Of a DNA stretch of 33,595 bases, positions 2,466 to 24,698 are shown piece after piece. The notes below the pieces were generated by a model. That model saw only the letters and a program-made list of their open reading frames with translations, had not been told where the DNA came from and ran no database searches. Origin of the DNA: Candidatus Zhuqueibacterota bacterium (GTDB taxonomy: Bacteria; Zhuqueibacterota; Zhuqueibacteria; Oceanimicrobiales; Oceanimicrobiaceae); assembly GCA_029262035.1 (NCBI GenBank), contig JAJDAE010000061.1, positions 1-33,595 on the forward strand. The letters are read 5' to 3'. The stretch's first letter is position 1, and every line of letters begins with the position of its first letter. The position numbers were made by a program, and so were the translations under genes.

Positions 2466-2807
2466 TTAGGCTGCTTTTGCGGTGTTTTTAGAGGCATAAG
2501 TTGCCATAGTGCTTTTCTCTATATCGAGCATACGTATGTCATCCACATAGGTCGTGCTTACCGGCTCTGTCACCATATTCAGGCGATTGAGTACATGTTC
2601 GATTTGTCGGCCGGATTCTGCAATAATTTCAAAATATTCTTTCAATCTTGGTTCGCATTCTTTGTTATCCGTTTGGACTTGGGCGATTGCGAGTGATAGC
2701 GCTCCTAATGGATTTCTGATTTCATGATTTAGGGTTACAACCAGCTCTTTAACTGCATTTAATCTTGCGCGCTTTGTACAATCTGTTGTTCTTAAATCGG
2801 TTCTCAT
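2466..2807 (-). CDS. Stand-alone histidine-kinase phosphoacceptor (HisKA-only) protein
   Basis: This 113-residue cytoplasmic protein has a HisKA dimerisation/phosphotransfer helix with the H-box NHEIRNPLGALSLAIAQV; the phosphoacceptor is His28. The helical hairpin spans about residues 14-80. There is no signal peptide, no membrane segment and no HATPase_c domain: the N, G1 and G2 boxes are all missing. The gene ends cleanly with a poor-complexity tail (about 81-113), and no HATPase remnant is visible downstream, where a hairpin follows. It lies 54 bp after the WxxGxW gene, separated by another hairpin, so it probably shares the sigma-54 promoter P2. By family logic it could accept phosphate from, or heterodimerise with, a full kinase such as the one at 22677-24698, but cannot phosphorylate itself. 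The alternative is a degraded kinase gene. Confidence 0.75.
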   Translation of the reverse strand: MRTDLRTTDCTKRARLNAVKELVVTLNHEIRNPLGALSLAIAQVQTDNKECEPRLKEYFEIIAESGRQIEHVLNRLNMVTEPVSTTYVDDIRMLDIEKSTMATYASKNTAKAA

Positions 2808-2861: not shown

Positions 2862-3329
2862 TTATAAAACCCAATAACCTGAAATCCAAATTGAGATGCC
2901 ATCGTTGTAAGTCCAGTAACCTGGCAACCAAATCGATCCCGCCGGATAGAGGTCCCAGTAGCCGCTAACCCATACCCATTTGACGAGTTGGTAATCCCAG
3001 ATCCAGCGACCGGTAATCCAAATTGAATTTGCTGCGGGCCGGACAGGAATAATTTGTTTTTTAATTGCCGGTGCTTTTTGCCGTATTACAATCTTATTGC
3101 TCGAGGTACTTTGTTTGCGAACAACTGACTTTGCTGTGGCAGATTTACTCCGGTCATTGGATTTTGGTGTTTGGTACTTTCTGGTCGATTCCACTTTAGC
3201 CTTTGACTTGCTTCGTGTTGTACTTTTCCGGCTTTTCGAACCAGCCCAGGCTTCGGGGTTTAAACCCACAATCATAACTGCTATCATCGTGGTTAAAAAG
3301 ATTCTTTTTATTGATTTCATGATAATCAC
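2862..3329 (-). CDS. Exported WxxGxW-repeat protein
   Basis: The 155-residue product begins with a hydrophobic signal peptide (about 6-29, cut near AWA). A Ser/Lys/Arg/Thr-rich, basic, low-complexity stretch follows (about 30-95). The C-terminal 55 residues carry four WxxGxW motifs: WITGRW, WVSGYW, WLPGYW and WISGYW. These match the WxxGxW repeat family (PF12779 type), often found in secreted or surface-associated bacterial proteins of unknown function; I expect a small beta-rich aromatic repeat. It is the first gene downstream of the sigma-54 promoter P2, with an estimated leader of about 44 nt, and is followed by the HisKA-only gene. The pairing of an envelope protein with a signalling fragment in one transcript is unusual. 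No catalytic residues are apparent. Confidence 0.8.
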   Translation of the reverse strand: MIIMKSIKRIFLTTMIAVMIVGLNPEAWAGSKSRKSTTRSKSKAKVESTRKYQTPKSNDRSKSATAKSVVRKQSTSSNKIVIRQKAPAIKKQIIPVRPAANSIWITGRWIWDYQLVKWVWVSGYWDLYPAGSIWLPGYWTYNDGISIWISGYWVL

Positions 3330-3383: not shown

Positions 3384-3400
3384 TGCAAGGTGTGTGCCAA
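3384..3400 (-). promoter_or_regulatory. Sigma-54 promoter P2 (-24/-12)
   Basis: The minus strand reads TTGGCACACACCTTGCA, a perfect match to the RpoN consensus, with GG at 3398/3397 and GC at 3386/3385. The predicted transcription start is near 3373, 44 nt before the WxxGxW start codon. Confidence 0.9.
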
Positions 3401-3496
3401 CTTTTTTAAGAGCTCACGCATAGCAACCTTTGCCACTGTAATTAAAGCACTTACATCAACTTTACTCTTGAGACTTTTTAGCTTTCCGACAGAAAT

Positions 3497-3535
3497 GGCG
3501 ACCATTTGGTCTATGGTATTCGACGATTTGGGCTA
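3497..3535 (-). promoter_or_regulatory. Tandem activator sites upstream of P2
   Basis: The plus-strand copies are GGCGACCATTTGGTCTA (3497-3513) and TTCGACGATTTGGGCTA (3519-3535), 22 bp apart. The near edge is 99 bp upstream of the -24 GG. Motif, spacing and distance match the pairs at the other three sigma-54 promoters. Confidence 0.75.
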
Positions 3536-3830: not shown

Positions 3831-4619
3831 TTAGTTTTTGCCACCACGATTGTTCTTGCCTTTTGGGCCGCTATCGTCACAATCACCGGAGCCACTGCCG
3901 CTACCGTTGTTGCCACTACCACTGCCGCCGTTTCCTCTGCTACCGGAGTTTGCTTTTCTGCCTGAACCATCTTCAGGTCTGACGAAGTCTTCGTCACGTC
4001 CGTTTGGGATTCCGTCGCCGTCATCGTCCATTGCGTTGTCGTTGATACCATCGCCATCCTCGTCGATAAAACCCATCTTGCCTTTTCCATTCATGGGATT
4101 CTGGCGAACGTAGTCCTCATCCTGACCGTTAGGAATTCCATCACCGTCGTCGTCTTTGGCATTGTCGTTGATGCCGTCACCGTCTTCATCTACAAAGCCT
4201 TTGCTGCCACTACGATTGCTGTTACCTTTTTGGCTTTGACCATTTCCTTTATTACCGTTGTTCATCTTTTGCCCGCTACCATCTTGTGCAGGTACAAAGT
4301 CGGGATCTTGACCGTTAGGGATTCCATCACCGTCGTCATCTTTAGCGTTGTCATTGATGCCGTCGCCATCTTCATCCACAAAACCATTACCTTTGCTATT
4401 ATCAGGTCTGATGTAGTCAGAGTCTTTTCCGTTCGGGATTCCATCGCCATCATCGTCTTTTGCATTATCATTTACGCCATCACCATCTGCATCTACAAAG
4501 CCTTTATCCGCTTTCTTGCCTTTTTGTTGTGCATAGGCATCTGTAGATGTGGTGGCAAATAGCAGCATCAATGAAAACAACAGAGCCGCCGCAACAGTAA
4601 GATTCATGATTCTTTTCAT
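3831..4619 (-). CDS. Secreted acidic-repeat (TSP3-like) protein with four repeats
   Basis: This 262-residue protein has a signal peptide (residues 1-30, cut near AYAQQ) and four 30-residue repeats at about 40-69, 79-108, 141-170 and 183-212. Each repeat is GFVDEDGDGINDNAKDDDGDGIPNGxDxD or nearly so, with two DxDGDG loops typical of calcium-binding TSP3 or EF-hand-like repeats. Linkers and the 50-residue C-terminal tail are rich in Gly, Ser and Asn, with one Cys at 247. The repeats are more uniform than in the paralogue at 1490-2107, which suggests recent unit duplication or homogenisation. It is a single-gene unit with its own sigma-54 promoter P3 and a strong terminator, so it can be strongly induced alone. 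By motif it binds Ca2+ outside the cytoplasm; a structural or matrix role is a guess. Confidence 0.85.
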   Translation of the reverse strand: MKRIMNLTVAAALLFSLMLLFATTSTDAYAQQKGKKADKGFVDADGDGVNDNAKDDDGDGIPNGKDSDYIRPDNSKGNGFVDEDGDGINDNAKDDDGDGIPNGQDPDFVPAQDGSGQKMNNGNKGNGQSQKGNSNRSGSKGFVDEDGDGINDNAKDDDGDGIPNGQDEDYVRQNPMNGKGKMGFIDEDGDGINDNAMDDDGDGIPNGRDEDFVRPEDGSGRKANSGSRGNGGSGSGNNGSGSGSGDCDDSGPKGKNNRGGKN

Positions 4620-4688: not shown

Positions 4689-4705
4689 GGCAACAGCTAT
4701 GCCAG
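4689..4705 (-). promoter_or_regulatory. Sigma-54 promoter P3 (-24/-12)
   Basis: The minus strand reads CTGGCATAGCTGTTGCC, with GG at 4703/4702 and GC at 4691/4690, 12 nt apart. The predicted transcription start near 4678 gives a leader of about 58 nt to the ATG at 4619. Confidence 0.8.
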
Positions 4706-4801
4706 AAAATTTTGCATCAAATAAAAAATAATATAAACTACATACAATTAACAACTTAAGCTTAATTATTATTAAACCTAAAATGAAAACAAAACGGGAT
4801 T

Positions 4802-4840
4802 CTCGACCATTTAGTCGATTAAATTTCGACGGTTTGGACG
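4802..4840 (-). promoter_or_regulatory. Tandem activator sites upstream of P3
   Basis: The plus-strand copies are CTCGACCATTTAGTCGA (4802-4818) and TTCGACGGTTTGGACGA (4824-4840), 22 bp apart. The near edge is 99 bp upstream of the -24 GG. The same arrangement is found at P1, P2 and P4. Confidence 0.8.
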
Positions 4841-19682: not shown

Positions 19683-20135
19683 CTAAATAATCAAATTATT
19701 CTCAAATACCAACCGGACATCTGCAGGCAATTCCAACTTGAGAAATTCATCGTACAGCTCAATATTCTCGATTTCAGCTATAACACCGGCTGCGCAAGCT
19801 TCCACTACTGAAGCAAATGCCGGAACATTGTAAAGGTTCCATTCGCTTTCAGGTACCTCAAACCCACCATTACTAAAAACTCGTCCAATGGACAAAAAAT
19901 GCCGCACTTCAGCGTTGACGATACTACTAAAAGGCTGCACAGCGCCAAAATCTGCCAAAACTCTGAGGTAAATATTTTCAGCACGATATTCATCCTGAAT
20001 TGCTGAATTCAGTATGATTATAACTTCCGGGGTCAAAGGTTCCGAAGGGGTTACCGAGTCACTTAAATTACTACAAGATATTAGAACGGCCAAAAGCATA
20101 CTGAGTGCTGCGACTTTTATGATCACAGTTTTCAT
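19683..20135 (-). CDS. Ferritin-like (DUF2202-type) lipoprotein, C-terminally short
   Basis: The start at 20135 is chosen over in-frame codons up to 20252: AAAGGAG precedes it, it begins a lipoprotein signal peptide (lipobox LISC, Cys21), and the upstream extension overlaps promoter P4. The 150 residues include a ferritin-like four-helix domain of DUF2202 type, with likely metal ligands in QDEYRAEN (Glu49, Glu53), NAEVRHF (Glu76, His79) and IAEIENIELYD (about Glu121). The protein stops after VFENNLII, where relatives normally continue with a short Asn/His motif; the following frame holds another stop at once, so a late truncation is likely. Iron or manganese binding at the envelope is inferred. 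It is the first gene of the P4 transcript, ahead of the ABC genes. Confidence 0.75.
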   Translation of the reverse strand: MKTVIIKVAALSMLLAVLISCSNLSDSVTPSEPLTPEVIIILNSAIQDEYRAENIYLRVLADFGAVQPFSSIVNAEVRHFLSIGRVFSNGGFEVPESEWNLYNVPAFASVVEACAAGVIAEIENIELYDEFLKLELPADVRLVFENNLII

Positions 20136-20233
20136 TTTTGTTCTCCTTTTCATAAAGTTAGATGATGCATATTTCAAAAAGATACAAAAAAAGTCTATTT
20201 GCTTGCATTTTCTTTTCATTTCGGACAGGCTAA

Positions 20234-20250
20234 GGCAACCCGTGTACCAC
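20234..20250 (-). promoter_or_regulatory. Sigma-54 promoter P4 (-24/-12)
   Basis: The minus strand reads GTGGTACACGGGTTGCC, with GG at 20248/20247 and GC at 20236/20235, 12 nt apart. The predicted transcription start near 20223 gives a leader of about 88 nt. It would drive the ferritin-like lipoprotein and the Lol-like genes. Confidence 0.75.
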
Positions 20251-20345
20251 AACCTGAACCTTGAAACAATAGGAATATAAGTGCTTGAATTTACAACAAT
20301 AATGGAGACGTAATGTCTGAGTCTTAGAATTATTTCATTCGAATT

Positions 20346-20385
20346 TTCGACGATTTGGACGAGATAAATTCAACGGTTTGGAGGA
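20346..20385 (-). promoter_or_regulatory. Tandem activator sites upstream of P4
   Basis: The plus-strand copies are TTCGACGATTTGGACGA (20346-20362) and TTCAACGGTTTGGAGGA (20369-20385), 23 bp apart. The near edge is 98 bp upstream of the -24 GG. They begin 55 bp past the stop of the metal-transporter gene, which is in the response-regulator operon. Confidence 0.8.
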
Positions 20386-21260: not shown

Positions 21261-22625
21261 TCACTTCATTCCATATTTTTGAAGTTTATACCTCAAATGC
21301 CGCTCAGTCATACCCAATATATCAGCAGCTTTAGTTTGCACTCCCTTTGATTCTGCCAGAGCAGTCTGTATAAGCTGTTTTTCAAAATTTCCAACCCTTT
21401 CGTCAAACGTGCCTGTTGTTAAATCCATGGATTTTTTGTTTTCGTTTTTTAGCCCCTGGACATTCATGGGTAGGTCGCGTGAGTTGATAATTTCTCCCCG
21501 CGCTAAGACAACTGCCTGCTCAATGATATTTTCCAATTCCCGTATATTGCCGGGATAGCCATACTTGAGCAGCAAATCCATAGCCTCTTTTGAGATACCG
21601 CCGACCTGTTTCTTATTCAGAGTTGAAAACTTTCTGAGAAAATGGTCAATCAGGGGATGAATATCGCTCTTATGTTCACGAAGAGGGGGAACCGAAATGG
21701 AGATGACATTTATACGATAGTAAAGATCGTCTCGAAATGTTCTTTCTTCAAGCATGGCTTCCAGATCGCGATTCGTAGCGGCGATAAGCCGTACATCTAC
21801 CTTAATGGTTTCGCTGCCTCCCACCCGTTCGAAAGATTTTTCCTGCAGGACTCTTAGCAGTTTAACTTGGGTTGACAGAGGGATTTCACCAATTTCATCT
21901 AAAAACAGAGTGCCACCATGGGCCATTTCAAAACGGCCTTTGCGCTGACGGTCGGCTCCGGTGAAGGCACCTTTCTCATGCCCAAAAAGCTCGCTTTCTA
22001 AAAGATTTTCTGCTAAGGCAGCGCAGTTCACCGCTATGAAAGACTTATCTTTGCGTGTGCTGGCATAATGAATAGCTTTGGCGATCAACTCTTTTCCCGT
22101 ACCACTCTCGCCTCGAATGAGAGCGGTAGCCTGACTGGGCGCCACTCTTGCTGCTGTGTTGAGTACTGCCTCCATCTCCCGGCTGCTTGAAATAATTTCT
22201 GCAAACTTAAACTTTTCTTCAAGTTGTATTTTCAGTTCCCGGTTTTCAGAAACTAATTGTTTACGTTCCAGAGCATTTTCAACAATCAATTCAAGATGAT
22301 CTAAGTCGATAGGTTTCGTAAGATAATCAAAAGCGCCAGCTTTCATCGCCTCTGTGGCCGATTCCACGCTGCCGAAAGCCGTCATCACAATAACATCGAT
22401 TTCAGGATTAATTTGTTTGGCTTCATTCAAAACAGTTAAGCCATCTTTTTCAGGCATTTTAAAATCAGTGAGAATCAAATCAATCGTTGTGGACTTCACC
22501 ATTTCAAGACCTGCATTTCCTGAACCGGCCTTTTCAACCCGGTAGCCTTTTTTCTTGAGAAATCCGGCTAAAGTTTCCAATTGAGCTTTTTCATCGTCTA
22601 TAACTAAAATTGTAGAGTCCGGCAT
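21261..22625 (-). CDS. Sigma-54-dependent response regulator (NtrC/ZraR type)
   Basis: The 454 residues form three domains. The receiver (about 1-120) has the phospho-acceptor Asp54 in LILTDFKMPEKDG plus the acidic pair DDE at 10-12 and Lys104. The AAA+ domain (about 145-375) has Walker A GESGTGKE (172-179), Walker B LFLDEIG and the GAFTGAD loop (219-225) that contacts sigma-54. A Fis-type HTH closes the protein (about 412-452: TKAADILGMTERHLRYKLQKYG). All activity motifs are intact. It is 51 bp after the sensor kinase. It is the best candidate to bind the tandem TCGAC dyads in front of P1 to P4, because those sites lie in the same window and one pair flanks its own operon; other NtrC-type proteins elsewhere are not excluded. 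Confidence 0.95.
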   Translation of the reverse strand: MPDSTILVIDDEKAQLETLAGFLKKKGYRVEKAGSGNAGLEMVKSTTIDLILTDFKMPEKDGLTVLNEAKQINPEIDVIVMTAFGSVESATEAMKAGAFDYLTKPIDLDHLELIVENALERKQLVSENRELKIQLEEKFKFAEIISSSREMEAVLNTAARVAPSQATALIRGESGTGKELIAKAIHYASTRKDKSFIAVNCAALAENLLESELFGHEKGAFTGADRQRKGRFEMAHGGTLFLDEIGEIPLSTQVKLLRVLQEKSFERVGGSETIKVDVRLIAATNRDLEAMLEERTFRDDLYYRINVISISVPPLREHKSDIHPLIDHFLRKFSTLNKKQVGGISKEAMDLLLKYGYPGNIRELENIIEQAVVLARGEIINSRDLPMNVQGLKNENKKSMDLTTGTFDERVGNFEKQLIQTALAESKGVQTKAADILGMTERHLRYKLQKYGMK

Positions 22626-22676: not shown

Positions 22677-24698
22677 TTAGGCTTGACTGTTCGGCAAAAT
22701 AATCCGAAAAATTGTTCCGACATCCACCCGGCTCTCAACTTCGATACTGCCATGATGCGCTGCAACAATTTGATTGGCAATACTCAATCCCATGCCCGTA
22801 CCATCCTCTTTCGTGGTGAAATATAAATCAAAAATTTTGTCCAGGCTTTCTTTTGCGATGCCATAACCCGTGTCCTCGATTTCCACAACTACGTTATTAT
22901 CCAACGCCCTCATTTTAACAAAAACACTTCCATCTTTGGAAATCGCCTGCAAGCTGTTTTGGAGCAAATTCAAAAAAACCTGTTTGAGCTGATTTGGATC
23001 TATAAATATTTTCTCTAAGGTTTGATATTTTTTTACTACTTTGGTCCCTTTACTATCGGCCTCCGGCAAAACTAATTCTATTACTTCGTCCATTAAATTA
23101 TTTAAGTCTGACCTCTGAAGATCCAATTTGGGCGGGCGCGCAAATTTCAGGAATCGCTGGATCAGAACATTGATACGAAACACCTCATTTACCACCGTCC
23201 TCGACAGGGTCTTATATTCATCTACATCCGCCTTTGGTTCGAACTCTTTACTCAACCTCTGAGCAATCATGCCAATGGCGTTTAAAGGATTTCGCACTTC
23301 ATGGGCAACACCGGAAGCCAACTCACCCATCGCTGTCAACTTTTCTTTGCGACGGAGATTTTCTTCCATAATCCGACGGTCGGTCAAATCTTTAATCACG
23401 GCAACAGCCGAATCAACTTCGCCACTCTTGGTTTTCAAAGCAAAGGCATTAACAGAGAGAATGGCCTTTTTCCCGGGAATCTTGTATTCGGTTTCAAAAT
23501 CCTGTATGCTTTTGCCAGTCCGAAGTGTTTCTTCCAGCACAGTCTCGGCGTAAACCAGTTCCGAGCACTTTTTACCGAATGCGGCTCTTTCCTCAATATT
23601 AAATAATTTCTCGGCAGCACGGTTAAAAAGTGTGATCTTTTCATCCGGATCGATGGCAACAACTGCATCGGTCATGTTGGCTAAAATGCTACCGGTGTAT
23701 GTTTTGGCTCTTAAGTAAGCTTCGTCCAGGAGCGTATAATTCTGGTTCACAATGACAAAATTGAATACGAGAACGCCTCCGACCAACAGGATTAGAGAGA
23801 TGAACAAAAGTCTTCTTTTGGTGCGGGTATCGGCCTCCGCAATGTGATCTGTTTTTAAACCAATTCGAATTAGCCCTAGAGAAGCACTATCTATAAAAAA
23901 AGGGGTCACGGCTTCAAAAATTTGATTGTCATTTAATTCGGTTAAACGGGTCGATGGGGTAGATTTTTTCTGAGCTTCACGTAAAAACGGATCGCTGCTT
24001 ATCTTCGACATGCTGCTTATTTCCTTCGATGCGGCGATTATGCCAAGGGTATCCTGAATCACGATATAGAAGATTCCGTCCTTCTCTGCCATATCATTTA
24101 TGAGGCGGCCAACGCCAATCTCCTTGCGGAGACGCAGCATTTCTTTGGCATCGATATTAACGACCACAACGCCGCCTTTGGTGCGCCGGACAGCCACAGC
24201 GTATCGCTTGCCCAGCCCAAAGCGTGACTCTTTAAAACCAATAACAATCTCATCTTCACGCCCTTCTAAAATGGGGAGAAGAAATTGGCGCGGTTCGTGC
24301 AGTGGTTCCAGGTCTTCATGAATTGCGGTGTGACTACTAACAACTTTGTTGCCTTTTCCATTAAAAATATTGATTCGAAGCAAATTGTTTTGTGCGGCAA
24401 TTTCAGTCAACTCTTTTTGTGAAAGTGTATTCGTCTTGTCGAACCTTTCGATCATTTTCGCATTATTTAAGAGTCTTTCGGCGACTTGGGTTTCAAGTTC
24501 ACTATAGGCCAAGGTCGCATTATCACTACTAACCGTAATGGATTCAATCAGGGAAGCTGCTTGCTCAGACATAATGTGCAATATTTCTTTCTTCACTTGA
24601 GAAAGCTCAATAACTGCGGATACCACCAATATCACAGCCAATGACAATGTGATAATGATCATGAACTTTGGTTTTAGAAGTAATCTCTTTTTAGCCAT
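22677..24698 (-). CDS. Membrane sensor histidine kinase, partner of the sigma-54 regulator
   Basis: The 673-residue kinase has TM1 (about 12-30), a large extracytoplasmic sensor region (about 31-295), TM2 (297-317), a PAS domain (about 333-440), a HisKA domain with His466 in GVAHEVRNPLN, and a HATPase_c domain with N-box NLLQNSLQAI and G-boxes DTGYGIA and GTGMGLS. It resembles ZraS/NtrB-type kinases. The sensor region has no Cys pairs or heme motif, so its signal cannot be told. It is transcribed with the response regulator that follows and 10 bp after an outer-membrane protein gene. The H-box is similar to that of the HisKA-only protein at 2466-2807. Confidence 0.93.
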   Translation of the reverse strand: MAKKRLLLKPKFMIIITLSLAVILVVSAVIELSQVKKEILHIMSEQAASLIESITVSSDNATLAYSELETQVAERLLNNAKMIERFDKTNTLSQKELTEIAAQNNLLRINIFNGKGNKVVSSHTAIHEDLEPLHEPRQFLLPILEGREDEIVIGFKESRFGLGKRYAVAVRRTKGGVVVVNIDAKEMLRLRKEIGVGRLINDMAEKDGIFYIVIQDTLGIIAASKEISSMSKISSDPFLREAQKKSTPSTRLTELNDNQIFEAVTPFFIDSASLGLIRIGLKTDHIAEADTRTKRRLLFISLILLVGGVLVFNFVIVNQNYTLLDEAYLRAKTYTGSILANMTDAVVAIDPDEKITLFNRAAEKLFNIEERAAFGKKCSELVYAETVLEETLRTGKSIQDFETEYKIPGKKAILSVNAFALKTKSGEVDSAVAVIKDLTDRRIMEENLRRKEKLTAMGELASGVAHEVRNPLNAIGMIAQRLSKEFEPKADVDEYKTLSRTVVNEVFRINVLIQRFLKFARPPKLDLQRSDLNNLMDEVIELVLPEADSKGTKVVKKYQTLEKIFIDPNQLKQVFLNLLQNSLQAISKDGSVFVKMRALDNNVVVEIEDTGYGIAKESLDKIFDLYFTTKEDGTGMGLSIANQIVAAHHGSIEVESRVDVGTIFRIILPNSQA

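Follow-up and report, generated by a model that had tools for sequence, protein, structure and literature searches.

The window analysed here (the whole stretch of 33,595 bp, from a Candidatus Zhuqueibacterota bacterium) carries an intact gene for a HisKA/DHp-only protein of 113 residues, together with the promoters, enhancers and regulatory genes collected in Table 1. The open reading frame has an ATG start with a GGAG Shine-Dalgarno sequence 7 nt 5′ of it, and of the six frames only the annotated one has a positive codon-usage score (0.09; the remaining five range from −0.2 to −0.55). In a Pfam scan of the protein, HisKA (PF00512, 2.3e-9, residues 20–77) was the sole match; neither HATPase nor Hpt (PF01627) was matched, the open frame stops after the tail, and the gene is not among the Hpt genes of this genome. 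The H-box reads NHEIRNP and includes His28, in agreement with the preliminary description of a HisKA-only protein with an intact H-box and no ATPase domain. Compared with the family pattern NH-x-[IL]-N-N-P, the His, the Pro and the Asn at position +4 (Asn32, a response-regulator phosphatase feature) are retained, whereas +3 is Arg, a residue found once at this position across the 116 proteins of the family, in which 111 have Asn. Arg31, together with Leu39 and Ala40, deviates from near-invariant family positions. Only about 10 residues precede the profile-matched region, and there is no N-terminal PAS, GAF or other sensor domain.

Table 1. Features of the window, with positions counted from its first base
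Feature	Position	Strand	Basis or remark
Promoter P1: sigma-54 element (2187–2173) and paired UAS (2286–2320)	2173–2320	−	Upstream of TSP3-repeat gene 1490–2107
HisKA/DHp-only protein gene, 113 aa	2466–2807	−	His28, Glu29 (+1), Asn32 (+4)
Conserved family tail, residues 82–100 (PVSTTYVDDIRMLDIEKST)	2508–2564	−	Alignments and AlphaFold; predicted β-hairpin 84–86/92–94
Stem-loop between the two P2 genes	2824–2849	−	−25 kcal/mol, z −5.0 against shuffles, no T-run
Exported WXXGXW-repeat protein, 152 aa, first gene of P2 unit	2862–3320	−	PF12779, 0.0029
Promoter P2: sigma-54 −24/−12 element TGGCACACACCTTGC	3385–3399	−	0 mismatches
Promoter P2: paired enhancer dyads (UAS)	3499–3533	−	100 bp upstream of −24 element
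Intrinsic terminator ending P3 unit ahead of P2	3779–3806	−	Strong
Promoter P3: sigma-54 element (4704–4690) and paired UAS (4804–4839)	4690–4839	−	Upstream of TSP3-repeat gene 3831–4619
Promoter P4: sigma-54 element (20249–20235, 1 mismatch) and UAS (20348–20360)	20235–20360	−	Upstream of gene 19683–20252
NtrC/ZraR-class response regulator: REC, sigma-54 activator, Fis-type HTH	21261–22625	−	Pfam
Membrane sensor histidine kinase, sCache-PAS-HisKA-HATPase	22677–24698	−	Pfam; inferred partner of the regulator

The AlphaFold model of the protein (single chain, 36 sequences, pLDDT 87.6) comprises two long helices (residues 3–47 and 53–77), the short β-hairpin and a C-terminal helix. The predicted fold is a soluble helical hairpin and, as had been stated in the preliminary description, contains no membrane segments. 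No degenerate CA-like domain follows the DHp in the model, where the hairpin and helix alone are found. The top PDB matches in Foldseek were mostly the DHp parts of kinases, with E-values that are weak, as expected of a two-helix fold, and the RetS–GacS DHp complex (7n0e) was among the closest solved folds. The best curated match was NtrB, the partner of NtrC. Within the tail, P82, Y87, M93, L94 and D95 fit the pattern P..(4)..Y..(5)..M[LI]D. A direct pattern scan gave no near copies of the gene, nor did a plasmid search.

The HisKA gene is the second in the P2 unit, 54 bp after the WXXGXW gene, and no terminator was found between the two. A stem-loop with 12-bp arms lies there, which may reduce expression of the HisKA gene or tune the ratio of the two P2 products. 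Placement of the gene in the P2 transcript, claimed previously, is favoured by the perfect −24/−12 site, the terminator that closes the P3 unit ahead of P2, and the lack of a terminator between the two P2 genes; we infer, with good support, that the two genes are co-transcribed from P2. That its promoter is the regulon's own was borne out; P2 shares its UAS with the other promoters of the window. The alternative that the open frame is the frameshifted start of a longer gene was rejected, since the 54 bp upstream hold the hairpin and adjoin the end of the WXXGXW gene.

Four promoters (P1–P4) in the window possess a sigma-54 −24/−12 element, three of them perfect and that of P4 with a single mismatch. 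At each, an enhancer-like dyad with the consensus CGACSRWTTRGNC is placed so that its inner edge lies 99, 100, 100 and 99 bp, respectively, from the −24 element. Two perfect UAS copies, 22–23 bp apart, are present at P1–P3, while the second copy at P4 is degenerate. Across the 5.3-Mb genome, the single-site pattern has 14 matches, a number equal to that of the reversed-pattern control (14), and seven of these fall in the window, at P1–P4. Outside the window the genome contains no UAS pairs and only seven single matches, which we take as chance level because the reversed pattern gives as many in all. A symmetrised weight matrix for the UAS was too unspecific, and the consensus with its spacing was used instead. 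P1 and P3 drive thrombospondin-type-3-like (TSP3) Ca-binding-repeat proteins and P4 drives a further gene. The sensor kinase and response regulator form a pair of the ZraSR/NtrBC type, and the regulator is likely to be the activator that binds at P1–P4. P2 is probably switched on by the bacterium's own sensor–regulator pair. With dyads at a constant 99–100 bp, the four promoters (2173–2320, 3385–3533, 4690–4839 and 20235–20383) define a compact regulon, located next to the NtrC-class pair and comprising genes for TSP3-repeat, WXXGXW and other envelope proteins.

The assignment of the regulator to these promoters draws on related genomes. Another genus of the same family (G004) has an orthologous regulator, 75% identical, and immediately after it a pair of UAS with a sigma-54 promoter 100 bp away and TSP3 genes. 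In a further genus (G003) the region is syntenic: genes for WXXGXW, TSP3, efflux and regulator proteins are all found there, along with sigma-54-like sites and UAS-like dyads, and the WXXGXW homologue has the same promoter arrangement. In a member of the same class (G040), a TSP3 gene located close to the orthologous regulator has a promoter and a single degenerate UAS in front of it. Because the orthologues adjoin the same UAS and promoters in these genomes, the window's regulator likely activates P1–P4, and the regulator–enhancer linkage is evident, at the level of sequence, in three genera. The sigma-54/enhancer regulon is conserved in at least two further genera. Over the stretches read, the HisKA gene is missing from the G004 and G040 regulons and from the syntenic one of G003, and the search of the other phylum genomes did not recover it. 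The idea that it is a conserved part of the regulon was rejected on the grounds of G003 and G004; it is therefore a lineage-specific addition, and the regulon works without it.

The 113-residue protein belongs to a family of DHp proteins that share the conserved tail (PV..Y..MLD..S), collected by a profile search of 82 phylum genomes and by scanning contigs of public genomes. As the best 80 of 244 confirmed contig matches were retained, the resulting set of 116 distinct proteins is a partial census. Loci were found in KSB1/Calditrichota, Zixibacteria, Latescibacteria, Krumholzibacteria, Neomarinimicrobia, Gemmatimonadetes, Armatimonadetes, Nitrospinae, deltaproteobacterial genomes and others, and none of the NCBIfam models scanned covers the family to its end. 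Scored with a tail-family profile built without it, the window protein reached 87 bits, against 45 with a profile of full-kinase DHp domains (54 against 47 for the DHp alone). In a DHp-only tree it sits on a long branch, within a clade (support 0.84) that comprises 113 family members and a single kinase.

Family proteins usually end within 20 residues of the tail, and the open frame is free of HATPase in 115 of the 116 tail-bearing proteins, as judged by a local profile and by how soon the stop codon follows. In the single HATPase-bearing relative the module is appended to a complete kinase–REC protein, in the place of an HPt domain; this order is seen at locus L213 (reverse strand, 595-residue open frame), where a GAF-HisKA-HATPase-REC kinase carries the DHp–tail module at its C-terminus. 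The window protein's relatives are thus not full-length kinases, and a degraded kinase was rejected as an explanation of the gene. Most family proteins have N-terminal REC-PAS, REC, PAS or GAF domains. Among those collected, the intact free-standing form is rare, comprising the window protein and one of 111 residues from a Nitrospinae bacterium (L122, 801–1136); a 'stand-alone' KSB1 match (G040/L077) was left out of this count, being a frameshifted REC-PAS-DHp gene.

Conservation of the catalytic positions in the family differs from that in kinases. The phospho-acceptor His is present in 116/116 proteins, so His28 is conserved among relatives although the short form itself is rare. The +4 Asn is likewise found in 116/116; the family was gathered partly with the pattern NH[EAK]INNPL, which favours a +4 Asn in that part, whereas the phylum profile search did not impose it. 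The acidic +1 residue is replaced by A, Q or K in 14 of the 116 proteins; NHA, NHK and NHQ forms occur among the flagellar REC-PAS-DHp proteins. Among 58 full kinases of these loci, +1 is acidic without exception, while Asn, Thr and Ser all occur at +4. HisKA domains need the acidic +1 residue for the kinase reaction only and the +4 Thr/Asn for the phosphatase reaction only, with a +4 mutant still able to transfer phosphate (PMC3510030). The same source reports that the DHp domains of NtrB and EnvZ, when isolated, are enough for phosphatase activity, and that in vivo they produce a constitutive phosphatase phenotype. Judged from these alignments, an invariant +4 Asn with a variable +1 residue is what would be expected if the module had been retained to dephosphorylate receivers. 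The window protein has Glu29, so this copy has kept the kinase residue. The invariant His is unexplained by phosphatase chemistry alone and fits phosphotransfer equally.

The explanation we favour, to which we give just under an even chance (0.48), is that the 113-residue protein is an induced phosphatase of the NtrC-class regulator and closes a negative feedback loop. The kinase–regulator pair would switch on P1–P4, and activation of P2 would yield the protein together with the WXXGXW envelope protein. Dimerised as a putative four-helix bundle, it would dock via helix 1 on the phosphorylated receiver of the regulator, where Asn32 would position the attacking water for hydrolysis of the phospho-aspartate, and the self-induced phosphatase would limit or end the response. 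This proposal builds on what is observed of the gene, its domain, family membership and residue conservation, and of the promoters and enhancers; promoter linkage is what suggests the regulator as the target. A response-regulator phosphatase is placed first because the +4 Asn is invariant, +1 is free to vary, and the isolated NtrB and EnvZ domains are phosphatases. A further point in its favour is the company that family genes keep with receivers, kinases and sigma-54 regulators: of 80 named loci, REC lies in the same open frame in 16 and in an adjacent gene in 19, and an adjacent HATPase gene is present in 15; flagellar members, that of this genome among them, are often found behind a sigma-54 regulator. 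A role in negative feedback had been proposed before and is plausible, but the chemistry then preferred (draining of phosphate, formation of inactive heterodimers or a step in a relay) gives way here to dephosphorylation of the regulator.

The invariant His would also suit a histidine phosphotransfer protein resembling Spo0B, ChpT or HPt, in which His28 takes phosphate from a receiver and passes it on or back, as a relay or buffer. In family proteins the module often follows a REC domain in the same chain or has one encoded in a gene next to it, and the module of L213 occupies the place that HPt has in unorthodox kinases. P2CS files HisKA proteins without HATPase as phosphotransfer proteins (PMC2716373), and PhyT was initially taken for a phosphatase and later shown to be a phosphotransferase (PMC5898713). 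Phosphotransfer does not, however, require the +4 Asn that the family keeps invariant, and a relay needs a second receiver, yet no receiver-only gene lies near the HisKA gene; we consider this role unlikely. Somewhat less probable again is direct inhibition of the sensor kinase, through mixed DHp dimers, as the preliminary description envisaged, or an occupied CA domain. DHp domains do dimerise, and RetS–GacS offers a complex of this kind among the nearest solved folds, but the kinase's own DHp scores only 27–28 bits with the family profile and did not come up in the own-genome search, so the 113-residue protein shows no special similarity to it.

We see only a slim chance that the protein is regulated at this locus and acts on another regulator, such as the flagellar sigma-54 regulator elsewhere in the genome, so that it would couple the regulon to a second pathway. 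The sole other family member in this genome, a REC-PAS-DHp protein in a flagellar locus (contig C106), sits behind that sigma-54 regulator and FliA, which lends the idea some appeal; the two DHp domains are only 27% identical and no direct link was seen. We rate lowest the possibility that a larger family protein has decayed here to a remnant without function. The divergent sequence of the protein and its absence from all other phylum genomes searched would agree with decay, but the start, ribosome site and frame are intact with the codon usage of the genome, all catalytic positions are retained, the conserved tail is complete to its end, nothing in the 54-bp gap points to N-terminal domains that were lost, and Nitrospinae have an independent homologue that is likewise intact and free-standing.

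Several described systems resemble the window protein in part. The archaeal 'nonenzymatic HK-like proteins' have HisKA with a conserved His and no HATPase, as here; phosphoacceptor or phosphatase roles were suggested for them, and REC-PAS/GAF-HisKA versions were described (Galperin et al. 2018, PMC5847659). Those proteins bear sensor or receiver domains, whereas the window protein is a DHp and tail only. The earlier remark that free-standing HisKA proteins are rarely described accordingly applies to the stripped form; ATPase-less HisKA proteins in general are common and previously noted. The isolated DHp domains of NtrB and EnvZ (Zhu et al. 2000, as cited in PMC3510030) likewise have no CA domain, and NtrB acts on a sigma-54 activator of the NtrC class; unlike such laboratory truncations, the window gene is natural, separately encoded and probably induced, and its product has an extra C-terminal tail. 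Spo0B, ChpT and PhyT are also kinase-derived DHp dimers without a working ATPase that use a conserved His for phosphate handling (PMC3433190, PMC5898713). They differ in keeping a degenerate CA-like domain (PMC5898713), and none of them is a DHp with a β-hairpin tail. FixT and other induced anti-kinases are comparable as small proteins that feed back on a two-component system, but FixT has a receiver fold (PMC7078487). In RetS–GacS, contact between DHp domains controls the kinase, and the complex is a structural neighbour of the window protein; RetS, in contrast, is a full-length hybrid kinase. In the open-licence literature we found neither the bacterial family with this tail described nor a naturally occurring gene for a DHp alone within a sigma-54 regulon.

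DHp domains cut from kinases act as phosphatases in the laboratory. If the feedback phosphatase proposed here is real, a natural, separately encoded and induced DHp would mean that cells deliberately switch off sigma-54 regulators in this way. The family is large and spans many phyla, with the phosphatase residue kept and the kinase residue free to go. More tentatively, the tail-bearing DHp may constitute a separate and widespread two-component output module, a receiver phosphatase or phosphotransferase in which the β-hairpin replaces the ATPase domain, with the window gene as its minimal form, serving as induced feedback phosphatase of an NtrC-class regulator.

The gene order around family members elsewhere falls into several arrangements. 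In seven loci from Krumholzibacteria, Latescibacteria and others (L137, L141, L152, L102, L118, L138 and L156), an operon encodes a large HATPase protein, a REC-only protein and a PAS-DHp-tail protein. In a further seven, mostly from Zixibacteria (L097, L123, L125, L126, L136, L140 and L155), a GAF-DHp-tail gene is immediately followed by a full kinase and then by REC genes. Two relatives extend past the tail (L142, and L190/L100, which are the same gene), and neither extension matches the local HATPase profile; in L100 (3728–4880), the DHp–tail module is followed by approximately 190 residues that, by eye, resemble an HD-GYP domain. Flagellar loci of the phylum, including that of this genome, often have the order sigma-54 regulator, GAF, REC-PAS-DHp, FlgA. 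Six such loci (L214, L215, L217, L221, L223 and L225) encode a sigma-54 regulator, a GAF or REC protein and a REC-PAS-DHp-tail protein, with FlgA next in several, and the ATPase-less protein occupies the position where a FlgS/FlrB kinase might be expected.
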